This document shows, in pieces, positions 36,392-51,879 of a stretch of 64,000 nucleotides of DNA (position 1 is the stretch's first letter; every line of letters starts with the position of its first letter). Location of the stretch: NCBI GenBank assembly GCA_031200235.1, contig CP133595.1, positions 1,178,001 to 1,242,000 on the forward strand, in the 5' to 3' direction. The notes below the pieces were generated by a model. The model made no database searches, had not been told where the DNA came from, and saw only the letters and a program-made list of their open reading frames with translations. Source of the DNA: Cuniculiplasma divulgatum (lineage in GTDB: Archaea > Thermoplasmatota > Thermoplasmata > Thermoplasmatales > Thermoplasmataceae). Made by a program: the position numbers and the translations under genes.

Positions 36392-37021
36392 TTGATAGAG
36401 GCAGAGATTCGATTCGTCAGGCCCGTTGAATGGATATCTGAACTAGCTGAGAATCATTCTTCCACTGTAAGGATAAGAGATGTTAGAAATGGACGCGGAG
36501 GTGTGATGGATCTTGTTGATATTTTCCTCCCGGATGGACACGGAAGTTTGCCCACGAAAGGACTTCCGGTAGGTCTGCAAAATGGAAGCGATCGAGTAAA
36601 GATAATAGATCAGAATAGGATAACTGCAATCATAGATGCACATAATTGCCCTGTATGCAGTGCCATTGTGAGATTTGACATTTTTCTCATCGATGCCCGT
36701 TCCCACCCTTCAGGGGATGTTAGTATGGTCTTTCTATCGCCTGACGAACAAACATTATCAGAATTTCTGGGTTGTCTTAATGGTGATGGCATGTCTTACA
36801 TCATAGTGAGAAAGAGTGATATAGACATAAAGCCGCAAATAACTGCCCGTCAGGAGTTTATTCTTAAAACTGCTCTGGAACTTGGCTATTTTGACTATCC
36901 AAAAAGAATTGATCTTAAAGGATTATCAGAACGCCTGGGTATTTCATACACCACGATATCGGAGATTCTCCGCAGGGCTGAAAGGAAAATAATTGGGGAG
37001 TTCTTCTCCAGAGATTCATGA
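36392..37021 (+). CDS. Bat-type HTH transcription regulator 1 (CxxC sensor half)
   Basis: This 209-residue regulator has the bacterio-opsin-activator-type helix-turn-helix at its C-terminus: RQEFILKTALELGYFDYP, then LSERLGISYTTISEILRRAE. The N-terminal half holds a C86-PV-C89 pair inside AHNCPVCSAI. It starts at TTG, with GAAAGAGGG before it and a TATA-like GTTTAAATAT about 30 bases upstream. The same MIEAE start in the paralogue at 41554-42186 supports this choice. It is likely to regulate the adjacent DUF2249-cupin genes or the nitrate reductase operon. The ligand is unknown; the Cys pair could sense metal, redox state or NO. Confidence 0.85.
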   Translation: MIEAEIRFVRPVEWISELAENHSSTVRIRDVRNGRGGVMDLVDIFLPDGHGSLPTKGLPVGLQNGSDRVKIIDQNRITAIIDAHNCPVCSAIVRFDIFLIDARSHPSGDVSMVFLSPDEQTLSEFLGCLNGDGMSYIIVRKSDIDIKPQITARQEFILKTALELGYFDYPKRIDLKGLSERLGISYTTISEILRRAERKIIGEFFSRDS

Positions 37022-38326: not shown

Positions 38327-39523
38327 ATGAGGTTGGCAAATAGAGTCAGTCACATAAACCGTCTGGTATCATTTTCCCTCGCAGTTACGGTTGCGATGCT
38401 CATAATCGGATTTGCGTTAGGTGCCTCAAAACTTGCACAGCAGCATGGATTCACCATTGATACAGTACTTGCAGGGTATATCCATGTGCATCCGGTGATA
38501 ATGGTATTTGGTGTGGTAGGGGGTCTCCTTATCAGCGAAAAGCTTGAAATGATGGGTAAATTCAAGATTCTAGGAGGGATTCCAATATCATATCCCATAG
38601 TAGCTAGCATGATTTCGGGTGTTACCATTCTTTCCGTTACATATTACACAATTTTTCAGGACCTACGTTTCGTAGGAGCAGCGCTTATTGCCACCGCAGG
38701 ACTACTGTTCATGTGGTTCATGATTTCCAGGAGGAATCCTGGCAGCACTGATATAAAGTTCATTATGGGCATCTCGCTGCTGGCTTTGGCGTTAGGTGCC
38801 ATTTCTGTATCGTTCAAGTCAGCGACATCATCGCCATCGGTGGCTCTGTTGATGCTCTCATTCCCTATTCTCTATATTTTTGGCGAGAGAATTGAACTCG
38901 GTTTGATGAGAGGCATCAAACATGGTTACATGCTTTTAATGAAGATATCTGCGGTTTTAATTCCATCGCTACTTTTCATCTCATCCATTCTGCAAGACGA
39001 AATTGAGATTCGACTGTTGTTCGACTTGGCACTGTTGCCAATGTTTTTATTTATTTTCGCTGTCACCATATTTGACCCCGTGTTCAGAATCAGGCATCCA
39101 CGCGGGAAATTGCAGAGATTTATGGGAGCAGGCATACTTTCTTCATATATCTGGATCTGGATTGGCCTTATTCTGTACATAATCCAGGTGAACATATCAC
39201 ATGGTTATATGGACGCAGCAACCCATGCGATCGCGCTGGGATTCATAGGGTCCTTCATAATAGCCCATAGCCCTGTTATTTTCCCCCTTATTCTCAAACT
39301 AAGGGCAGATACCAATAGAGTTACCTTTTCACCCATCATTGCTCTGGATCTAGCGGTTGTGCTGAGAGTGGGAGGAGATTTATCTGCTATGGTGTGGAAA
39401 TTTGGAAATTTCTTATCATACCTGTCAATATACATTCTCATTCTTGCGATATTGCTATTTCTGCTGAACATAATGAGGATTAAAAATGAGCCTGAAGGCG
39501 CGTCTTTAGCACGTCCCTTGTAG
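38327..39523 (+). CDS. NnrS-like polytopic membrane protein
   Basis: This 398-residue protein has about twelve hydrophobic segments. Histidines in LAGYIHVHPVIMVFGVVGG (helix 2) and in THAIALGFIGSFIIAHSPV (helix 9 or so) resemble the conserved histidines of NnrS, a heme- and copper-containing membrane protein linked to nitric oxide tolerance in denitrifiers. The resemblance is by pattern only and could instead reflect another heme-copper-like family. It overlaps no neighbour and ends a three-gene block that begins with DUF2249-cupin. Confidence 0.65.
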   Translation: MRLANRVSHINRLVSFSLAVTVAMLIIGFALGASKLAQQHGFTIDTVLAGYIHVHPVIMVFGVVGGLLISEKLEMMGKFKILGGIPISYPIVASMISGVTILSVTYYTIFQDLRFVGAALIATAGLLFMWFMISRRNPGSTDIKFIMGISLLALALGAISVSFKSATSSPSVALLMLSFPILYIFGERIELGLMRGIKHGYMLLMKISAVLIPSLLFISSILQDEIEIRLLFDLALLPMFLFIFAVTIFDPVFRIRHPRGKLQRFMGAGILSSYIWIWIGLILYIIQVNISHGYMDAATHAIALGFIGSFIIAHSPVIFPLILKLRADTNRVTFSPIIALDLAVVLRVGGDLSAMVWKFGNFLSYLSIYILILAILLFLLNIMRIKNEPEGASLARPL

Positions 39524-41553: not shown

Positions 41554-42186
41554 TCAATTTTTGCCTTGCTTGAAATATGAAGTTATGATATTCTTCTCAG
41601 CACGCCTCAAGATTTCTGCTAAAGTCACATATGAAACGTTCAATCGTTTTGATAAACCTTCTAGATTTATTTTTTTTGGATATTCAAAGAATCCCAGATC
41701 CAATGCTGTCTTCACAACATACTCTTGCCTGATTGTTATTTCTTTTTTCTTGGTCAAACGCGCCTTTTTAAGTAATCTAAATGCAACATCATCATTTTCA
41801 AGCCTTTCCAAGAATCCTGCTAGAGTAGCCTCATCCGGTGCAAGTAGACGCATGACGATACTTCCAGTTTCAGTCGTATGAGCTTCTGTAAGAAAGAGGT
41901 CCCAGTTCAACATCTTGCTGCAAAGATTGCATTCATCTGCATTTACGATAGCGGTTATGTGGTTGTCATCAATAAAAACTAGGCTTTCATTGTGGTCTCC
42001 AACAAGCCGGTGTATCTCGTCATGAGAGCCCTCAGTGTCACCTGGTGGCACAAAGAAATCCACGAGATCTTTAATACCTTCCTGACTTCTTCGTATATCT
42101 CTGATCTTAATCATCGCGGAATACTTTTTCACCAAGGTCCTAAAAGAGTCCATGGTTTGTTCGAATTCCAATTCAGCTTCAATCAC
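41554..42186 (-). CDS. Bat-type HTH transcription regulator 2 (CxxC sensor half)
   Basis: This 210-residue paralogue of the regulator at 36392-37021 is similar along its whole length. The HTH is RQEYVVKTALDLGFFEYP plus LSKRLNVSYVTLAEILRRAE. The cysteine pair C86-NL-C89 in ADECNLCSKM stands at exactly the same positions as in regulator 1. The start is a GTG giving MIEAE, as in the paralogue. TATA-like reverse-strand sequences lie at 42199-42206 and 42216-42223. It lies about 1.5 kb from the nitrate reductase operon and reads away from it. Its target and signal are unknown. Confidence 0.85.
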   Translation of the reverse strand: MIEAELEFEQTMDSFRTLVKKYSAMIKIRDIRRSQEGIKDLVDFFVPPGDTEGSHDEIHRLVGDHNESLVFIDDNHITAIVNADECNLCSKMLNWDLFLTEAHTTETGSIVMRLLAPDEATLAGFLERLENDDVAFRLLKKARLTKKKEITIRQEYVVKTALDLGFFEYPKKINLEGLSKRLNVSYVTLAEILRRAEKNIITSYFKQGKN

Positions 42187-42928: not shown

Positions 42929-43399
42929 TCATGGGCTTGTGCTCTTCTTCTTTGCTTCGTAAGTACCCGGGATGGTCTTGAAGGACACATTCAGCCTATT
43001 CCAGGAGTTTATGGCTATAATGGCCCATGTAAGGACAACTATTTCTTCGTCAGAAAAGAATTTCTGAAGATTCTTGTAAATATCACTATCCTCCCTGATA
43101 TTTGATATAAGGGTGATCCTCTCTGTCCATGCCAGAGCAGCTTTTTCCTTTTCCGTGTACTGCGGGCATTCCCACCATGCGCTCAAGAGTGCAATCCGTT
43201 GGACCGTTTCGCCGTCCAACAGAGCATCTTTGGAGTGCATATCAAGGCACCATCCGCAGCCATTGAGTTGTGAAGCCCGCATCTTAATAAGGTGCAGAAG
43301 CCTGTTGTCTATCCCAGATTTGGAAATTGCCTTTTCCATGGTGTGCAGTGATCTCAGTATTTCCGGAGAAAAGCTGCCATAGTTGAGTCGAGGTTCCAT
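42929..43399 (-). CDS. AhpD-like carboxymuconolactone decarboxylase family protein
   Basis: This 156-residue protein has the AhpD-type motif NGCGWCLDMHSKDA, a CxxC followed by His three residues on. It is typical of peroxidatic or disulfide reductase members of the family. ECPQYTEKEKAALAWTERIT is the usual second conserved block. It should act in the cytoplasm against peroxide or as a thiol oxidoreductase; the partner is unknown. The start is an ATG with AT-rich sequence upstream. It lies divergent to the nitrate reductase operon, about 250 bases away. Confidence 0.85.
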   Translation of the reverse strand: MEPRLNYGSFSPEILRSLHTMEKAISKSGIDNRLLHLIKMRASQLNGCGWCLDMHSKDALLDGETVQRIALLSAWWECPQYTEKEKAALAWTERITLISNIREDSDIYKNLQKFFSDEEIVVLTWAIIAINSWNRLNVSFKTIPGTYEAKKKSTSP

Positions 43400-43654: not shown

Positions 43655-43897
43655 ATGGAAGAATCGGACGTAGAGGATTTGCTATATGTCCTCGAAGGAA
43701 GGTTCGGCAGTATTGATTTGCGTGCAAGGCAGATGATAAAAGAAATAAATGATTTTTCCACCTTGAATCGTTTGATACTTGTAGCCGCCAACGTCAGCAG
43801 CTATGGGGATTTTCTGCAGGAACTTGAGAATAAGGATTCGTTCAAAATAGCAGGTGATAGATTCAATCCACTGAGCAGGAGGAAAGTCAATGACTGA
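43655..43897 (+). CDS. Small DUF4351-like protein, first gene of the nar operon
   Basis: This 80-residue soluble protein has the pattern DLLYVLEGRFGSIDLRARQM, then INDFSTLNRLILVAANVSSY and FLQELE. It resembles the DUF4351 domain usually found at the C-terminus of Rpn-family nucleases. Here it stands alone. Its function is unknown; it could be a small assembly or regulatory factor. Its end overlaps narG by eight bases, and it follows a good TATA box, so it is cotranscribed with narGHJI. The family similarity is by eye. Confidence 0.6.
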   Translation: MEESDVEDLLYVLEGRFGSIDLRARQMIKEINDFSTLNRLILVAANVSSYGDFLQELENKDSFKIAGDRFNPLSRRKVND

Positions 43898-46800
43898 AGC
43901 CATAGGCGAGAAGAAAGGACAGGCAAGCAATAACAAATGGATAGAGTACGATCCCAGATCAAGAGAATGGGAGAATGTATACAGATCAAGATGGGATCAC
44001 ACCAAGATCGTCCGATCAACACATGGCGTGAACTGCACCGGTTCCTGCAGTTGGCAGGTGTACGTCAAAGATGGAATAATAACCTGGGAAACACAGCAAA
44101 CAGACTACCCATCCAATGGTCAGGATTTTCCTGAATACGAGCCCAGGGGTTGTCCTCGGGGAGCAACATTTTCTTGGTATACTTATAGTCCAATGAGAGT
44201 AAAATATCCATATATACGTGGGTCTCTTGTAAGAATGTGGAGAAAGGCACTCAGTGAAACCGGGAATCCTGTATCTGCGTGGGACAGTATTACCAGCGAT
44301 CCGCAGCAAAGGGATAAATATGTCAAGGATCGTGGAAAAGGAGGTTTTGTCAGAAGCAATTGGGATGAAATATCCCAGATAATATCCGCTTCTCTGATCT
44401 CAACTATAAAGAAGTATGGACCGGATCGGATACTGGGGTTTACACCTATTCCCGCCATGTCCATGGTCAGCTACGCAGCAGGTTCACGTTTCCTATCATT
44501 GATAGGAGGAAGCATGCTCAGTTTTTATGACTGGTATGCTGACTTGCCCCCCGCTTCACCGCAGATATGGGGTGAGCAGACAGACGTCCCTGAAAGTGCG
44601 GACTGGTACAATTCCAAATATTTTATCATATGGGGAACAAACCTCCCCCAAACAAGGACACCTGATGCACATTTTATGGTTGAGGCCAGATACAACGGGA
44701 CAAAAGTTGTTGGCGTAAGCCCTGATTATGCCGAATACATAAAGTTCAGTGACCTCTGGCTTCCCGCAAAGGCCGGCACAGATGCCGCACTTGCCCTGTC
44801 GATGGCACACGTGATTATCAAGGAGTTTTATGCAGATCGGCTTGAACCATATTTCGCCTCCTATGCAAAAAAGTACACTGATCTGCCATTCCTTGTCATC
44901 CTTAAAAAGGAAGGCGATGACTACAGGTCAGACAGATTCCTGAGGGCCAGTGATCTCGGGGTCGGCGAGAAATATTCTGAATGGAAAACGGTTGTGTGGA
45001 ACAGCGCCTCAGGGAAATTGAGTATACCCGGCGGGAGTATAGGCTACAGGTGGGATGAGTCATCCAGATGGAATCTGGACCTTGTCGGAGTAGATAATGA
45101 GAAAATAGATCCTGCATTAACATTTGTGGGATCGGAGGATTCTGTTGAGCTGGTTAAATTCCCATTTTTCGACGAATCTGGCTCATATACGTCAACGCGT
45201 GGGGTTCCAGTGAAAAAAGTAAAAAGCGCAGACGGGGGTATGATATCCGTCACCACAGTATTCGATCTCTTTGCAGCAAGTCTGGGCGTACCTCGTGGCC
45301 TGAAAGGTGACTATCCCGAAAACTATGAATCCGATGGGGCATACACTCCAGCGTGGCAGGAAAAGATAACAGGGGTGGACAGGAATCTGGCTATTAGAGT
45401 AGCCAGAGAATTTGCTGACAACGCCGCTAAAACCAATGGAAAATCAATGATCGCCATGGGCGCGGGCACAAATCACTGGTACAACAGCGACGTCATATAC
45501 AGAAGTATCATCAGTCTGGTGCTTCTCACAGGCAGCCAGGGAGTTAATGGTGGTGGCTGGGCGCATTACGTGGGCCAGGAAAAGGTTAGACCGTTCGAAG
45601 GCTGGAGCAATATTGCTTTTGCAATGGACTGGGAACCAGCTTCAAGACTTCAGAATGGTACCTCATTTTTCTATCTGGCATCAGATCAGTTCAGGTATGA
45701 GCAGAAATATGACTACACACAGTTAACTCCATTTCAGGGGAAATATGCCGGCAAGCACCCTGCGGATCTTCTGGCTCTAGCTGTGAGGGAAGGCTGGCAA
45801 TCAAGTTATCCCCAGACCAACAGAAACCCTCTGGACATTGCCAAGGAAGCCCGGGAAGCAGGCTGCAAGACAAATGAGGAGGTGGGTCAATACGTTGTCA
45901 AAAAGTTCCTTTCCGGTGATATTAAATTCTCCGTCGAGGAACCAGATAATGAAAAAAACTTCCCTCGAGTGCTTTTCCTGTGGCGTTCCAATCTAATAGG
46001 TGCAGCAGGGAAAGGCCATGAATATTTCATAAAACACATGATTGGATCAAGTGGCCATCCGCTTGGTGACTTAAGCGAAAGCTGGAAACCGGAAACTGTT
46101 TCCATACCAGAGAAAGTACCGGAGGGGAAACTTGACCTAATGGTAGATGTGGACTTCCGAATGACAAGTTCCGCCCTATATTCCGATATCGTGCTGCCTG
46201 CAGCCACATGGTACGAGAAATATGACATTAGCAGCACTGACATGCATCCCTTCGTCCATCCATTCAGTGCGGCTATATCACCGCCATGGGAAACTAGGTC
46301 GGACTGGGAAACTTTCAAGATACTTGCCAAGAATTTCTCAGAAATGGCTGCCAAGGAGCTTCCTGAGGTTGAGGATGTAATGCTGAATTCCATGCAGCAT
46401 GATTCAATCGATGAAATTGCGCAGCCATTTGGAACTGTCGATGACTGGTTAAGTTCAAAAACAACCCCAATACCTGGAAAGAACTTTCCCAAAGTTTCTC
46501 TCGTAAAAAGGGACTATACCAAAATTTATGACAAGATGGTAACCCTTGGCCCTCTGGAGAAGAAAAGGATAACTGCAAAAGGCATAACGATCCCCGGAGA
46601 GAATGCATTCCATGATCTGCTTGAGAGCAAATTGCCGGCATATGATGTGCAGGGTTCAAGTTTTGGCCTTCCATCAATTAAGGAAGAGCGGCAGGTTGCC
46701 GATGCAATGATGACACTTTCCGGTGCGACCAATGGCCACCGGTCTCAAGAAGAATGGGCCTTCCTTTCTAAGAAGATGGGGAAGAACCTCACTGAATCAT

Positions 46801-47555
46801 TCCGGGGGAATTATGAAACGGATATCTCGTTCGATGACCTCGTTAGGCAGCCCAGACGTGCAATTGCCGGCCCCGTTTGGAGCGGCAATGAAGGTGGTGG
46901 GAGGCGTTATTCTCCATTTACAACGAACGTTGAATTTTCAATCCCCTGGAGAACATTGACAGGCAGACAGGCATTTTATCTGGACCACGAATTAATATCG
47001 GAAATGGCCGAGAATTTGCCCATTTATAAGCCTCCGTTGGGGCTTGCATTCTATACAAACAAGGAGGACGGCGCGCGACTGGCAACAGGCAAACATCTTA
47101 CAGTAAGATATCTGACACCACATCAGAAATGGGGCATTCACTCCACCTACGCCGACACGCCCATCATGCTTACACTTTTCCGCGGAGGGCAGTATGTGTG
47201 GATTAATGAGGATGACGCAAAGGAGATTGATCTGAAAGATAACGACTGGGTGGAAATTTACAACATGAACGGTGTTGTTGTTGCAAGAGCTGTCCTGTCA
47301 TACAGGATACCCAGAGGAGATGCAATAATGTATCACGCACAGGATCGTACAGTGGGAACACCAGGAAGTGAGATAACCGGAGATAGGGGCGGAACACACA
47401 ACAGTGTTACGCGTGTGATACTGAAACCAACCCATTTAATAGGCGGATATGCGCAGCTGGCATTCTTTTTTAATTATTACGGGCCAACCGGTCACCAGAG
47501 AGATGCAACAGCTTTCATCCGCAAACTCAACGAGGTGAAATGGCTTGAAAGTTAA
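43890..47555 (+). CDS. narG: Respiratory nitrate reductase alpha subunit
   Basis: This 1221-residue molybdopterin enzyme reduces nitrate to nitrite. H45, C49 and C53 in THGVNCTGSCSW plus C88 in EPRGCPRG are the FS0 cluster ligands of NarG. The FYDWYADLPPASPQIWGEQT segment (from about residue 212) holds the Mo-coordinating Asp. Length and order match membrane-bound NarG. Unlike the haloarchaeal and Pyrobaculum enzymes, the N-terminus (MTEAIGEKKGQASNN) has no twin-arginine signal, so the subunit should be cytoplasmic. AGGAGG stands eight bases before the ATG. narH overlaps its end. Confidence 0.95.
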   Translation: MTEAIGEKKGQASNNKWIEYDPRSREWENVYRSRWDHTKIVRSTHGVNCTGSCSWQVYVKDGIITWETQQTDYPSNGQDFPEYEPRGCPRGATFSWYTYSPMRVKYPYIRGSLVRMWRKALSETGNPVSAWDSITSDPQQRDKYVKDRGKGGFVRSNWDEISQIISASLISTIKKYGPDRILGFTPIPAMSMVSYAAGSRFLSLIGGSMLSFYDWYADLPPASPQIWGEQTDVPESADWYNSKYFIIWGTNLPQTRTPDAHFMVEARYNGTKVVGVSPDYAEYIKFSDLWLPAKAGTDAALALSMAHVIIKEFYADRLEPYFASYAKKYTDLPFLVILKKEGDDYRSDRFLRASDLGVGEKYSEWKTVVWNSASGKLSIPGGSIGYRWDESSRWNLDLVGVDNEKIDPALTFVGSEDSVELVKFPFFDESGSYTSTRGVPVKKVKSADGGMISVTTVFDLFAASLGVPRGLKGDYPENYESDGAYTPAWQEKITGVDRNLAIRVAREFADNAAKTNGKSMIAMGAGTNHWYNSDVIYRSIISLVLLTGSQGVNGGGWAHYVGQEKVRPFEGWSNIAFAMDWEPASRLQNGTSFFYLASDQFRYEQKYDYTQLTPFQGKYAGKHPADLLALAVREGWQSSYPQTNRNPLDIAKEAREAGCKTNEEVGQYVVKKFLSGDIKFSVEEPDNEKNFPRVLFLWRSNLIGAAGKGHEYFIKHMIGSSGHPLGDLSESWKPETVSIPEKVPEGKLDLMVDVDFRMTSSALYSDIVLPAATWYEKYDISSTDMHPFVHPFSAAISPPWETRSDWETFKILAKNFSEMAAKELPEVEDVMLNSMQHDSIDEIAQPFGTVDDWLSSKTTPIPGKNFPKVSLVKRDYTKIYDKMVTLGPLEKKRITAKGITIPGENAFHDLLESKLPAYDVQGSSFGLPSIKEERQVADAMMTLSGATNGHRSQEEWAFLSKKMGKNLTESFRGNYETDISFDDLVRQPRRAIAGPVWSGNEGGGRRYSPFTTNVEFSIPWRTLTGRQAFYLDHELISEMAENLPIYKPPLGLAFYTNKEDGARLATGKHLTVRYLTPHQKWGIHSTYADTPIMLTLFRGGQYVWINEDDAKEIDLKDNDWVEIYNMNGVVVARAVLSYRIPRGDAIMYHAQDRTVGTPGSEITGDRGGTHNSVTRVILKPTHLIGGYAQLAFFFNYYGPTGHQRDATAFIRKLNEVKWLES

Positions 47556-49038
47556 GTCCCAGATAGCTATGGTGATGAACCTTGACAAATGCATAGGATG
47601 CCACACCTGCAGTGTAACGTGCAAGAACGTGTGGACCAATAGGCCCGGCACGGAGTACATGTGGTTCAATAATGTTGAAACACGGCCAGGCCCCGGTTAT
47701 CCCACTGCATGGGAAAATCAGGACAAGTATAAGGGAGGATGGATTCTGAAGAACGGCAAGCTGCGTTTGAGATCGGGCGGCTCCCTCCAGCGGCTTCTCA
47801 ATATATTCTTCAATCCGGATCTTCCAACAATAGATGACTATTATGAGCCCTGGAACTATGACTATGGCAATCTTCTGGACAGCGCCAGGAAGGAACATCA
47901 ACCTGTTGCGAAACCGTTCTCTTCCCTGACCGGCGAGTTCATAGATAATCCTAAATGGGGGCCGAACTGGAATGACGACCTGGCTGGCGGGACCGCAACT
48001 TCATCCATGGATCCAAATCTCAGGGAATTGCAGAATCACCTTGCTTTCGAATATGAGAAAGCATTTATGATATATCTTCCAAGGATATGTGAACATTGCC
48101 TGAATCCCGCTTGTGTGGCGGCATGCCCTGCCGGTGCCATATACAAGAGGGATGAGGATGGTATAGTTCTTGTCGACCAGGATTCATGCAGGGGCTGGAG
48201 GTTCTGTGTTACAGCTTGTCCATACAAGAAGGTATATTATAACTGGAACACGCACAAATCAGAGAAGTGTACGTTCTGCTATCCAAGAATAGAGGCAGGT
48301 CTACCAACTGTGTGCTCTGAGACCTGCGTCGGCCGCATCAGATACCTTGGCCCTGTGCTTTACGACGCAGACAGGATAGAAGAAGCTGCTGCAGAGAATG
48401 ACCCCAAGAAACTGTATGATTCGCAGCTATCAGTATTTCTCGATCCATTTGATCCTGAGGTGATTCAACACGCGCACGAAGAAGGAATAAATGATGCGTG
48501 GATCGAAGCTGCCCAGAAATCACCCGTATACAAAATGGCCGTCAAGTGGAAGGTCGCTCTTCCCTTGCACCCGGAATTCAGGACACTCCCAATGGTATGG
48601 TACGTTCCACCTCTGAGCCCCATTCTGAATACTGTGGATCACGAGGAGGAGATCGGAGCGTATGATTACGTCACCCTTGTTGACAGCATGAGAATACCCA
48701 TGGAATATCTCGCATCAATCCTCTCTGCAGGTGACACAGAGACCATCAGGAAGGTTCTGGTGAAAATGAGTACAATGCGTGCTTATATGAGATCCTTGAA
48801 TTTGAATGAGGCTGGAGGCGCAAAACTGCTAGAGGAATCTGAGTTATCTCCGGAAGATGTTGTGGAAATGTCAAGACTCTTCGGAGTTGCCAAATATGAG
48901 GAACGCTTTGTGATTCCTACCGGAAGAAGAGAGGCAACAGCAGATGCATCGTACCTCCAGGGAGCATGCAGCCTGGAGGGGATAGCGCCGGAAGAGGGGG
49001 TTATCTATCCTAAACTGAAGGGGGGTAGAGAACTCTGA
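47545..49038 (+). CDS. narH: Respiratory nitrate reductase beta (iron-sulfur) subunit
   Basis: This 497-residue electron-transfer subunit has four Cys clusters: CIGCHTCSVTCK, CEHCLNPACVAACP, CRGWRFCVTACP and CTFCYPRIEAGLPTVCSETC. The Trp in CRGWRFC replaces a Cys, as in NarH of E. coli, giving one [3Fe-4S] and three [4Fe-4S] clusters. It passes electrons from NarI hemes to NarG. The start is a TTG overlapping the narG stop, chosen because the resulting MKVKSQIAMVMNLDKC matches the N-terminus of known NarH. Confidence 0.95.
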   Translation: MKVKSQIAMVMNLDKCIGCHTCSVTCKNVWTNRPGTEYMWFNNVETRPGPGYPTAWENQDKYKGGWILKNGKLRLRSGGSLQRLLNIFFNPDLPTIDDYYEPWNYDYGNLLDSARKEHQPVAKPFSSLTGEFIDNPKWGPNWNDDLAGGTATSSMDPNLRELQNHLAFEYEKAFMIYLPRICEHCLNPACVAACPAGAIYKRDEDGIVLVDQDSCRGWRFCVTACPYKKVYYNWNTHKSEKCTFCYPRIEAGLPTVCSETCVGRIRYLGPVLYDADRIEEAAAENDPKKLYDSQLSVFLDPFDPEVIQHAHEEGINDAWIEAAQKSPVYKMAVKWKVALPLHPEFRTLPMVWYVPPLSPILNTVDHEEEIGAYDYVTLVDSMRIPMEYLASILSAGDTETIRKVLVKMSTMRAYMRSLNLNEAGGAKLLEESELSPEDVVEMSRLFGVAKYEERFVIPTGRREATADASYLQGACSLEGIAPEEGVIYPKLKGGREL

Positions 49039-49064: not shown

Positions 49065-49619
49065 TTGGGTTCTATATTGTTGGATTATCCTGATTTTGTA
49101 TCTGTGGGAGAACTCCTTGAGGACGTAACCAGGATATGCTCACCGTCCGACAACCCGGCAATTTCTACAATAATGAGTAGTATCTCTGGGCTTGATATAG
49201 TGGACCTGCAGATGGATTACGTCAGAACGTTCGACATGAGCAAATCTGCCCCTCTATATCTGACTGCGTTTGAGTATGGAGATTCTAGGAAGAGAGGAGA
49301 TGCAATGGTTGAAATCAAGAGGATGATCGAATCGAGTGGATTCACCTTGAAAAAGAACGAGATACCAGATTATGTGCCTCTCTTATTATCGTTCTTGGGT
49401 TCGTTTCAGGACGGAAGTTTGCCCGAATCCCTGGAAATCAGATTGGCCCATTATTTCTCTGAAATAGAGACAAAGATTGATTCTCAACTGTACAGAGGGG
49501 TCTTTTCCCTCATGAAAGCCTTACTCACCAATAAAACAGACACTGCCACCAGGGAATTTGTTGTGGCTGATACTGGCGAGATGCCGTACCCGTTAAGGTA
49601 CGAAGGGGGCGAGTACTGA
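49065..49619 (+). CDS. narJ: Nitrate reductase assembly chaperone
   Basis: This protein of about 184 residues belongs to the TorD/NarJ family of helical chaperones that insert the Mo cofactor and hold apo-NarGH. The SILLDYPDF opening, MDYVRTFDMSKSAPLYLTAF and DYVPLLLSFLG are characteristic. The TTG at 49065 is the first ordinary start, but the frame is open from 49029 and codes upstream for LISNKSDLLRLG, which looks like native N-terminus. GGGGG at 49021-49025 stands before a CTG at 49035. The true start is therefore probably 49035. It is tightly packed between narH and narI. Confidence 0.87.
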   Translation: MGSILLDYPDFVSVGELLEDVTRICSPSDNPAISTIMSSISGLDIVDLQMDYVRTFDMSKSAPLYLTAFEYGDSRKRGDAMVEIKRMIESSGFTLKKNEIPDYVPLLLSFLGSFQDGSLPESLEIRLAHYFSEIETKIDSQLYRGVFSLMKALLTNKTDTATREFVVADTGEMPYPLRYEGGEY

Positions 49620-50353
49620 TGGATTTCCTGAATCAGCTTGCCTGGGTGATATACCCATATATGTCGTTCTCATTGATGATCATTGGCGTGGTTTACAGGT
49701 TCAAATACAGGCCTCTCAGCATAACATCCAAATCCAGTGAACTTCTGGAAAAGGAAAGATTGCGGTGGGGAGCCAGACTGTTCCATTACGGCATAATTTT
49801 TGTTATCCTGGGGCATTTCGCCGGACTCTTCGTGCCCATATCACTGCTTAACAGGTTCGGCGTGTCTGATTACATGAATTATGCTGTATCTGTTCTCGCT
49901 GGCGGCATTTTCGGCGTTATGGCATGGATTGGACTGGCTTATCTCATTGGCAGGCGGCTATTCGTTAAAAGAATACGGCAGAATTCGAGCTTCGGCGATA
50001 CATATGTCCTTATCCTGCTTCTTGTGATCATGTCATTCGGCCTATCCCTTCCACTGGGATATGATCTTATCAATGGTTCCGCTGCATACAATTCAGTAAT
50101 GTCAAACGTGGGCCAGTGGATGACTGGATTCTTCACCTTCAGGCCGGATGCGTCACTGATGCAGGGCGTGCCACTTATTTTCAAAGTACACATATTGCTG
50201 TCTTTCCTTCTCTACCCGTCAATTCCTTTCACAAGGCTTATTCACATATTCACAACACCTGTTAGATACCTCTACAGGAAACCACTGGTATTCCGGAGGA
50301 TGAACAACGATCTTGCCAAATCTGGCGAACTTGAACTGCAGGGACAAAAATGA
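49619..50353 (+). CDS. narI: Respiratory nitrate reductase gamma (cytochrome b) subunit
   Basis: This 244-residue membrane subunit has five hydrophobic segments. H56 and H66 in RLFHYGIIFVILGHFAG and H191 and H209 in KVHILLSFLLYP...LIHIF match the four heme b ligands of E. coli NarI (56, 66, 187, 205). It oxidises quinol and anchors NarGH. The ATG overlaps the narJ stop and its own stop overlaps the next gene, so the translation of all four is coupled. It lacks the large cytochrome or Rieske partners found in some archaeal Nar operons. Confidence 0.93.
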   Translation: MDFLNQLAWVIYPYMSFSLMIIGVVYRFKYRPLSITSKSSELLEKERLRWGARLFHYGIIFVILGHFAGLFVPISLLNRFGVSDYMNYAVSVLAGGIFGVMAWIGLAYLIGRRLFVKRIRQNSSFGDTYVLILLLVIMSFGLSLPLGYDLINGSAAYNSVMSNVGQWMTGFFTFRPDASLMQGVPLIFKVHILLSFLLYPSIPFTRLIHIFTTPVRYLYRKPLVFRRMNNDLAKSGELELQGQK

Positions 50354-51435
50354 CTGAATTTATGCCTAGGTTGTTAGGAAGATGGGACAGCACTGCAAAA
50401 GATCTTCTGCCAGCATACTTTGCCATGGTGATGGCAACTGGCATAGTTGCCATCGCTGCACACATCTATGGAATGAATTATTTTGCACAGTTCCTGTTTT
50501 ATGTCGATCTGATCGGCTATGCTGTTTTGTGGGCTCTTTCTTTGTACAGAATGGCCGTACATGGAAAGAGATATCTTGCGGATCTTATGGATCATGCCCG
50601 TGGCCCAGGCTTTTTCACGGTGATAGCAGGGAACAATACCCTGGGATCTGTTTTTCTACTGGTTGAGAAGAATTACACCATAGCATTCGGGTTATGGATA
50701 TTTGGTTTCATACTGTGGGTTTTCTATCAATACTTCATATTCTCTGCACTTTCCTTAGATAAAAACAAACCCACGCTGGAGAAGGGAATCAATGGAGCCT
50801 GGCTCGTCGCAATCGTATCAACGCAATCCGTAGCAGTCCTTGCTGCACAGCTATCTCCACTGCATCACTGGATGTATCTTGTTGCTCTTGTCATGTACAT
50901 GATCGGATGGATGACGTATATCCTGGTGATGTCACTGATAAATTACAGGTTGCTGTTCATGAAGCTGGATGCCTCCGATATTACTGGCCCATACTGGATT
51001 AATATGGGGGCAACAGCCATAACCACGCTTGCCGGAGCGCTCCTGCTCATAGAGGGTCAGGGACCGGATTTTGCTGAATTTACTGTGATAAGACCGTTTC
51101 TTCTTGGAGCCACTTTAATGATATGGGCATACGGCAGCTGGTGGATACCATGGCTATTCATTGTTGGCATCTGGAAATATACCCGGGGACATGACAGGAT
51201 ATTGAGATACGATCCATTCTTCTGGAGCGGGGTATTTCCCATGGGTATGTACACTGTTTCCACGTATATGATGGCAAAAGCAACGACCTTCACTCAGTTC
51301 AAGGTTATTTCGGATTATTTCGTCTATATAGCCATAGTGGCATGGGTGTATGAATTCATTGGTCTTGTTGTCAGGATATTCACCGGAAGAAGCAGAGATA
51401 ATGTTCCAATGAAATATAAGACAACTATGGAATGA
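50350..51435 (+). CDS. TDT/SLAC1-family channel or transporter
   Basis: This 361-residue protein has about ten membrane segments. It opens with LLPAYFAMVMATGIVAIAAHIYG, a hallmark of the tellurite-resistance/dicarboxylate transporter (TehA/SLAC1) family. Plant and bacterial relatives conduct nitrate, chloride or dicarboxylates. Its four-base overlap with narI strongly suggests it moves nitrate or nitrite for the cytoplasmic enzyme, in the place where NarK is usually found. Substrate and direction are inference. No NarK-type gene is in the window. Confidence 0.85.
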   Translation: MTEFMPRLLGRWDSTAKDLLPAYFAMVMATGIVAIAAHIYGMNYFAQFLFYVDLIGYAVLWALSLYRMAVHGKRYLADLMDHARGPGFFTVIAGNNTLGSVFLLVEKNYTIAFGLWIFGFILWVFYQYFIFSALSLDKNKPTLEKGINGAWLVAIVSTQSVAVLAAQLSPLHHWMYLVALVMYMIGWMTYILVMSLINYRLLFMKLDASDITGPYWINMGATAITTLAGALLLIEGQGPDFAEFTVIRPFLLGATLMIWAYGSWWIPWLFIVGIWKYTRGHDRILRYDPFFWSGVFPMGMYTVSTYMMAKATTFTQFKVISDYFVYIAIVAWVYEFIGLVVRIFTGRSRDNVPMKYKTTME

Positions 51436-51447
51436 AAGGAGGTAATT

Positions 51448-51879
51448 ATGTCAGGTCCAGCGCTAAAGAAAAAAAGATCACACATGATGATTCACAGAGC
51501 AGTCGAAGGAGAGATTGAAGAGGCGCTGGCTGTACTTGATGGCTATAATAGAAATGCAGAATCCATCAACGGTATTGCTGTAAAAACACTCATTGATCTC
51601 TGGCATGATAAGGTTATAGCTCACGCAGATGAAGAGGAGGCATCTCTCTACGTGGAGATAAAGACGGCAGTCCCTAGGATGGATGCGACACTGTTGAAGC
51701 TATCAAGGGATCATGATCTGCTCAGGAAGTTGCTTGTGAATCTATCAACAGAATATTCCACACACAGGGACTATGCTGAAATGTCAATGATTAATCATAC
51801 TATGCTTAACATTTTGAAAATTCACTCCTCTGATGAAATGGTTATGCTCTCGGATTGTGAAGAAAATCTCTCAACGTAA
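51448..51879 (+). CDS. Hemerythrin (HHE)-domain protein
   Basis: This 143-residue four-helix protein has histidine and carboxylate positions SHMMIHRAVEGEIEEAL, HDKVIAHADEEEASLY, SRDHDLLRKLL and MINHTMLNILKIHSSDE, a di-iron hemerythrin pattern. Relatives bind O2 or NO or repair iron-sulfur clusters. It has a perfect Shine-Dalgarno AGGAGGT at 51437-51443, four bases before the ATG. It is the last gene of the nar operon, 12 bases after the channel gene. A role in protecting iron-sulfur or heme centres from NO is inference. Confidence 0.85.
   Translation: MSGPALKKKRSHMMIHRAVEGEIEEALAVLDGYNRNAESINGIAVKTLIDLWHDKVIAHADEEEASLYVEIKTAVPRMDATLLKLSRDHDLLRKLLVNLSTEYSTHRDYAEMSMINHTMLNILKIHSSDEMVMLSDCEENLST

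Follow-up and report, generated by a model that had tools for sequence, protein, structure and literature searches.

A SLAC1/TehA-type channel gene in the NarK position of archaeal and bacterial nar operons suggests a passive route for nitrate and nitrite

Introduction

Respiratory nitrate reductases (Nar) differ in the side of the membrane on which they work. NarG proteins with a twin-arginine motif are exported and, as is established for archaeal Nar, need no nitrate import. NarK, the usual transporter partner of nar operons, is a carrier. Proteins of the SLAC1/TehA family are a different matter, and to our knowledge the role of their prokaryotic members is poorly known. The plant relatives are described, in the text available of PMC3509319, as nitrate-permeable channels. 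In titles and the opening lines of abstracts, a coverage that mostly excludes subscription journals, we found no description of a linkage between nar and SLAC1 genes.

Here we describe such a linkage in Cuniculiplasma divulgatum. The stretch of DNA analysed, 64,000 nucleotides, is referred to throughout as ‘the window’, and the SLAC1/TehA-family protein that it encodes as P0001. The replacement of the usual nitrate transporter, in this archaeon and in two other microbial groups, suggests that the channel moves nitrate and nitrite.

The nar operon of the window

The host genome is a single contig of 2.0 Mb. A complete narGHJI operon lies upstream of the SLAC1 gene, and all four subunits score above their curated NCBIfam cut-offs (Table 1). 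The N-terminus of the narG product is without a twin arginine, and hence without a Tat signal, which places it in the cytoplasm-facing type. An initial annotation had the channel gene overlapping narI by four bases and standing where NarK is usually found, and both statements hold. The TGA of narI and the ATG of the SLAC1 gene share the letters ATGA at 50350-50353, an overlap that likely couples their translation. The same slot, exactly, is filled by NarK on a Thermus plasmid (L161; narGHJI–NarK). The operon of the window has no NarK, and such NarK-model matches as the host genome yields are all weak, the best reaching 42.6 bits where the cut-off is 311.7. Two further SLAC1 genes occur elsewhere on the chromosome, with much weaker scores (70.8 and 60.4 bits).

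Several other genes lie close by (Table 1). Homologues of the NnrS-like gene occur near nar in genomes G044 and G106, and an HTH_10 homologue in G106; the AhpD-like gene has a homologue near nar at locus L026.

Table 1. Features of the window and of three plasmid loci. Coordinates are those of the window unless a locus is named; scores are given with the cut-off of the model.
Feature	Coordinates	Strand	Details
HTH_10 (bat-type) regulator	36392-37021		related to that at 41554-42186; near nar operon
NnrS-like membrane protein, weak match	38327-39523		26.4 bits, below cut-off 28
HTH_10 (bat-type) regulator	41554-42186		related to that at 36392-37021; near nar operon
AhpD-like carboxymuconolactone decarboxylase family gene	42929-43399	-	just upstream of narG, opposite strand
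narG, nitrate reductase alpha	43890..47555	+	1221 aa; TIGR01580 1700 bits vs 1084
narH, beta subunit	47545..49038	+	TIGR01660 787 bits vs 524
narJ, assembly chaperone	49065..49619	+	TIGR00684 79.5 bits vs 59.35
narI, membrane cytochrome b subunit	49619..50353	+	TIGR00351 179 bits vs 105.55; PF02665
SLAC1/TehA-family channel gene (P0001)	50350..51435	+	ATG start, open frame, 361 aa
F296-P297 codons, central gate	51235..51240	+	equivalent to HiTehA F262-P263 and AtSLAC1 F450-P451; profile alignment, positions counted by hand
Hemerythrin-like gene	51448..51879	+	143 aa; PF01814 30.5 bits vs 25.3; downstream of SLAC1
Cytochrome b561 + sulfite-oxidase-type molybdopterin domain gene	L051:5334-8035; L052:5316-8017; L054:5325-8017		directly precedes SLAC1

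Family, predicted fold and gate

P0001 belongs, as first annotated, to the SLAC1/TehA family. It matches PF03595 (SLAC1) with 149.8 bits (cut-off 27.9), from residue 21 to 339 and over positions 4-330 of the 331 in the profile. This is its sole Pfam family; its sole NCBIfam match is the tdt model (TIGR00816, tellurite-resistance/dicarboxylate), at 68.4 bits far below the cut-off of 237.25, and no MFS or NarK family was matched in either collection. An AlphaFold2 model, built from a 23-row alignment, has a mean pLDDT of 89.3. Its 24 best Foldseek matches are entries with SLAC1 or TehA in the title or the Arabidopsis S1/S3 trimers (9m7r and 9m7s, which hold SLAH3 and SLAH1), plus 4ycr, whose title does not say which protein it holds. 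Aligned with VIA-align to TehA (3m72), the model gives a Z-score of 35.5 and an rmsd of 2.4 over 300 residues, against Z-scores of approximately 17 or less for unrelated rows. The predicted structure is thus the ten-helix SLAC1/TehA fold. By sequence, no SLAC1 structure in the PDB was reached by phmmer with P0001, or by a profile built from the four proteins most closely related to it; a 32-row profile did reach them.

The initial annotation had proposed comparing the gating phenylalanine with those of SLAC1 and TehA. F296 of P0001 aligns with F262 of HiTehA and F450 of AtSLAC1, and the F296-P297 pair is invariant in 58/58 SLAC1 rows, the sole invariant columns of that alignment. PMC10645844 describes the pore as blocked by F262/F450 and the helix as broken by P451, with impaired conductance when P451 is replaced. 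The remaining central-gate positions differ: AtSLAC1 V272, F276, V336 and V340 correspond, by profile alignment, to A93, T97, V156 and S160 in P0001, so that the residues on its pore side are smaller and more polar than those of the plant channel. The second central-gate phenylalanine (F276, in TM3) is found in none of the 58 rows. P0001 also lacks the long, cytosolic, regulatory N-terminus of the plant type; it is 361 aa in total, with helices from residues 4 and 21. A93, V156 and T158 are present in all 21 nar-linked rows and, since rows linked to other molybdoenzymes share them, they are marks of a subfamily rather than of nitrate.

Conservation of the linkage

Within the order, 4 of 117 genomes carry a narG above cut-off, and in all four the arrangement is narGHJI–SLAC1–hemerythrin on one strand. 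Because this gene order recurs in every narG-bearing genome, the linkage is not chance. In the other three, the SLAC1 proteins are 57-68% identical to that of the window, and the NarJ proteins only 38-47%. Some match to PF03595 occurs in 71 of the 117 genomes; with SLAC1 so common, co-occurrence alone means little (p 0.15) and only adjacency counts. At locus L025, several more small proteins around the nar operon resemble hemerythrins by eye, besides the conserved one next to SLAC1.

A scan of genome_contigs (84,980 species) for patterns of the order's four SLAC1 proteins, blind to nar, returned five loci, all five linked to nar. Two are records of order genomes already counted (G045 and G106). 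The others belong to an Anaerolineales bacterium, in which SLAC1 lies ahead of narGHJI, and to two Nitrososphaeria archaea (narGHJI–SLAC1). At L040 a MoeA-type molybdenum-cofactor gene comes next after SLAC1, overlapping it by 4 bases.

We then surveyed narG (E up to 1e-100) in Thermoproteota (20 of 349 genomes) and Chloroflexota (24 of 400), and compared every ORF of 48 regions surrounding those matches with Nar, NarK and SLAC1 references. Among the Chloroflexota, a SLAC1 gene lies downstream of narI in the same orientation, with a gap of 0 to 1.4 kb, at L138, L139, L140, L141, L143 and L144, and likewise at L145, L146, L149, L151 and L156. The order is narI–NarK–SLAC1 at L157 and at the truncated L202, and a broken operon, narJ–narI–SLAC1, remains at L204. 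NarK occurs without SLAC1 at L136, L142, L147, L148, L150, L154 and L158. SLAC1 proteins like P0001 (E up to 1e-10) were found in 29 of the 400 Chloroflexota genomes and narG in 24; 14 genomes have the two together, with a Fisher p of 4e-12, or 3e-11 when the centre genome is left out. Among the Thermoproteota, SLAC1 and narG come together only in the centre genome, a co-occurrence that is not significant (p 0.34), and six SLAC1 members of the Thermoproteota sample have no Nar gene nearby. The co-occurrence with Nar genes in other genomes, which the initial annotation had wished to see checked, is found in the order (4/4), in Nitrososphaeria and in many Chloroflexota.

Three Chloroflexota genomes have paired, adjacent nar operons—G804 (L144/L152), G736 (L145/L155) and G485 (L146/L153)—and in each pair one operon has SLAC1 directly after narI. 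Several Chloroflexota narG matches (G593, G657, G783, G804, G485 and G531) are interrupted by a single in-frame TGA, TAG or TAA, perhaps from the edge of the match, a frame error or a pseudogene.

Sidedness of NarG and alternation with NarK

Among 36 loci with a non-Tat NarG, 17 have SLAC1 only, 13 NarK only, two both and four neither. These 36 include the window and L039, L040 and L041, which were found or centred through SLAC1; the remaining 32 comprise 14 with SLAC1 only, 13 with NarK only, one with both and four with neither. Left out are L130, L131, L134, L150, L158 and L160, in which the start of NarG is missing (L150 and L158 have NarK), and the second nar copies L152, L153 and L155. 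L136 and L147, flagged as twin-arginine by the pattern script, are counted as non-Tat, the motif having been judged to lie in over-extended upstream frames. Ten loci have a Tat-type, outward NarG, all in Thermoproteota; within their regions there is no SLAC1 and one NarK-like gene (L127, on the other strand), L132 being cut downstream by a contig end and L128 lying on a 9.5-kb contig. Counting either kind of transporter, 32 of the 36 loci with an inward-facing NarG have one, against 1 of the 10 with an outward-facing NarG (p 6e-6, related loci not being independent).

NarK and SLAC1 occur together at L041 and L157, and at the truncated L202; since both are present, one transporter is not a full replacement for the other at L041 and L157. 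Of the four loci lacking both, L135 and L159 are truncated at contig ends and L133 and L137 have adequate flanks; in the L133 genome a NarK match starts just beyond the region mapped. Whole-genome searches with the NarK model found a match (E up to 1e-20) in one of 18 SLAC1-linked genomes (G119) and none in 17, many of the genomes surveyed being incomplete assemblies. This threshold was used as the measure because none of 29 genomes reached the curated NarK cut-off; as positive controls, seven genomes with NarK-only operons, picked for having NarK, all matched. FocA/NirC family proteins (formate/nitrite channels) and NirK were each found in 0 of 7 genomes searched.

Loci with SLAC1 and loci with NarK are intermingled in a NarG tree, with at least five switches over 35 labelled rows. 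A single origin of the nar-linked SLAC1 genes was rejected (p-AU 6e-50 with 21 rows; p 2e-6 with 17 rows, the four most divergent removed), in SLAC1 trees that are quick and have long branches, that leave out L003, and whose groups were named after the first tree had been inspected. Nar-linked SLAC1s do not form one clade; the linkage consequently has more than one origin, or intervening losses have occurred. The unlinked genes nested among them could represent lost linkage, and no number of gains is given.

Relatives beside other molybdoenzymes

Relatives of P0001 also accompany other molybdoenzymes. In eight Chloroflexota regions (L206-L213; a fragment in L211) SLAC1 lies near a Nas/Fdh-like enzyme, mostly with an Fe-S partner. 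The NasC model is its best match, below cut-off, and four of the eight score just above the cut-off of the Fdh-alpha model; the substrate of the enzyme could be nitrate or formate. PF03595 relatives on plasmids (17 hits, 32-43% identical to P0001) are annotated ‘tellurite resistance/C4-dicarboxylate transporter family protein’. In the seven plasmid surroundings inspected, one of which carries no annotation, narG is not listed. On three of the seven, all haloarchaeal (L051, L052 and L054), a b561-sulfite-oxidase-like gene adjoins a SLAC1 gene whose product is 39-41% identical to P0001; the domains of the b561-sulfite-oxidase-like gene were assigned by Pfam on L051 and L052, and by NCBIfam on all three. 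In five plasmid relatives aligned, the TM7 motif is mostly the same as that of P0001. Members of this SLAC1 subfamily may serve molybdoenzymes in general as channels for small anions, with nar as one case.

Proposed role and energetics

We propose that the SLAC1/TehA-type channel serves the cytoplasm-facing Nar in NarK's place, admitting nitrate and releasing nitrite. We give this reading, of which we infer both substrate and direction, a probability of about 0.58. The nitrate/nitrite cargo named in the initial annotation would follow from gene position and from the alternation with NarK; the sequence cannot distinguish among nitrate, nitrite, chloride, formate and sulfite. Whether SLAC1-type channels are, across archaea and bacteria, a recurrent and repeatedly recruited alternative to NarK—a passive, gated pore with nitrate in and nitrite out—we regard as an even bet.

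In the proposed mechanism, a single pore, gated by phenylalanine, would carry nitrate in one direction, into the cell, and nitrite in the other. The pore would work as a channel, and not as the exchanger first annotated; exchange would arise only through the use of nitrate and production of nitrite inside, and would be steady with both at equal rate. Since nitrate use would equal nitrite production, net charge movement would be near zero at either sign of the membrane potential. Being passive, the channel should serve best where external nitrate is plentiful. Calculated with assumed values, a potential of 50 mV, inside-positive, would let nitrate equilibrate approximately sevenfold inside, with a force of 187 mV driving nitrite outward; at 130 mV, inside-negative, internal nitrate would be 0.6% of external, and the outward force on nitrite 160 mV. 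By these forces the channel would be suited to letting nitrite out under any conditions, and for nitrate uptake it would serve best in acidophiles or where nitrate is abundant. Reversal of the membrane potential in acidophiles, which the initial annotation had offered, cannot be the general reason for the linkage because most of the SLAC1-linked loci here are in Chloroflexota, which are not known to be extreme acidophiles as a group. In strong acid, nitrite that left in anionic form would come back as HNO2, bringing a proton with it; this leak would have to be limited by the gated pore and by the NO-related neighbours. The downstream hemerythrin and the nearby NnrS-like genes would handle NO or nitrite stress.

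Alternative explanations

The channel might act as a valve for nitrite alone, releasing what Nar produces, with nitrate entering by another route. The force on nitrite, calculated from assumed values, is large and outward at either sign of the potential (187 and 160 mV), the co-occurring hemerythrin- and NnrS-like genes point to nitrite or NO stress, and NarK accompanies SLAC1 at two loci. Nitrate entry would then be left unexplained, however, in the 17 (of 18) SLAC1-linked genomes that gave no NarK match, and FocA/NirC was absent from all seven genomes searched; we consider this version unlikely. Slightly less probable, in our judgment, is a general anion channel—for chloride, bicarbonate, formate or sulfite—that balances charge or pH beside molybdoenzymes and is no route for nitrate or nitrite. 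Such a role fits the same-clade relatives that lie beside Nas/Fdh-like enzymes (eight Chloroflexota loci), beside sulfite-oxidase-like enzymes (three haloarchaeal plasmids), or beside neither, but it explains neither the alternation with NarK in one slot nor the absence of SLAC1 beside Tat-type NarG.

That P0001 is an exporter of tellurite/dicarboxylate or of sulfite, merely riding along with the nar operon, would agree with the public annotation of its relatives. The shortfall against the tdt model, and the recurrence of the linkage at the transporter slot in three phyla, make this very improbable. On the refuting condition named in the initial annotation, a grouping with dicarboxylate or sulfite exporters, the low tdt score speaks against such a grouping, but the plasmid relatives that are 39-41% identical to P0001 have a sulfite-oxidase-like enzyme as neighbour.

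Significance and comparison with known systems

The enzyme beside which SLAC1 takes the place of NarK has a known substrate, so that a specific and inexpensive test is possible. If nitrate and nitrite do pass through the channel, prokaryotic SLAC1/TehA relatives would gain a physiological role, and respiration a carrier-free route for nitrate. Respiring cells could then supply Nar by way of a passive pore. This would matter for energetics at low pH, and also for the genome-based prediction of nitrate respiration, in which NarK is a usual marker.

Among described systems, HiTehA (PDB 3m71-3m7c) and the plant SLAC1/SLAH channels (7en0, 7wnq and 9m7r) are the closest in structure. They share with P0001 the fold (Z 26-36 over approximately 300 residues), PF03595 and the Phe-Pro gate pair of TM9; they differ in sequence, being approximately 13% identical to P0001, and P0001 is linked to nar. 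The NarK proteins of nar operons (e.g. L161), members of the MFS, resemble the nar-linked SLAC1s in gene slot and in their inward-facing NarG partners, and the two occur in alternation; the families are unrelated, and the relatives of SLAC1 are channels. The cytoplasmic NarGHJI of the E. coli type has, like that of the window, four subunits and a NarG without a Tat signal. There the accompanying transporter is NarK, whereas in the window a SLAC1 gene and a hemerythrin-like gene follow.
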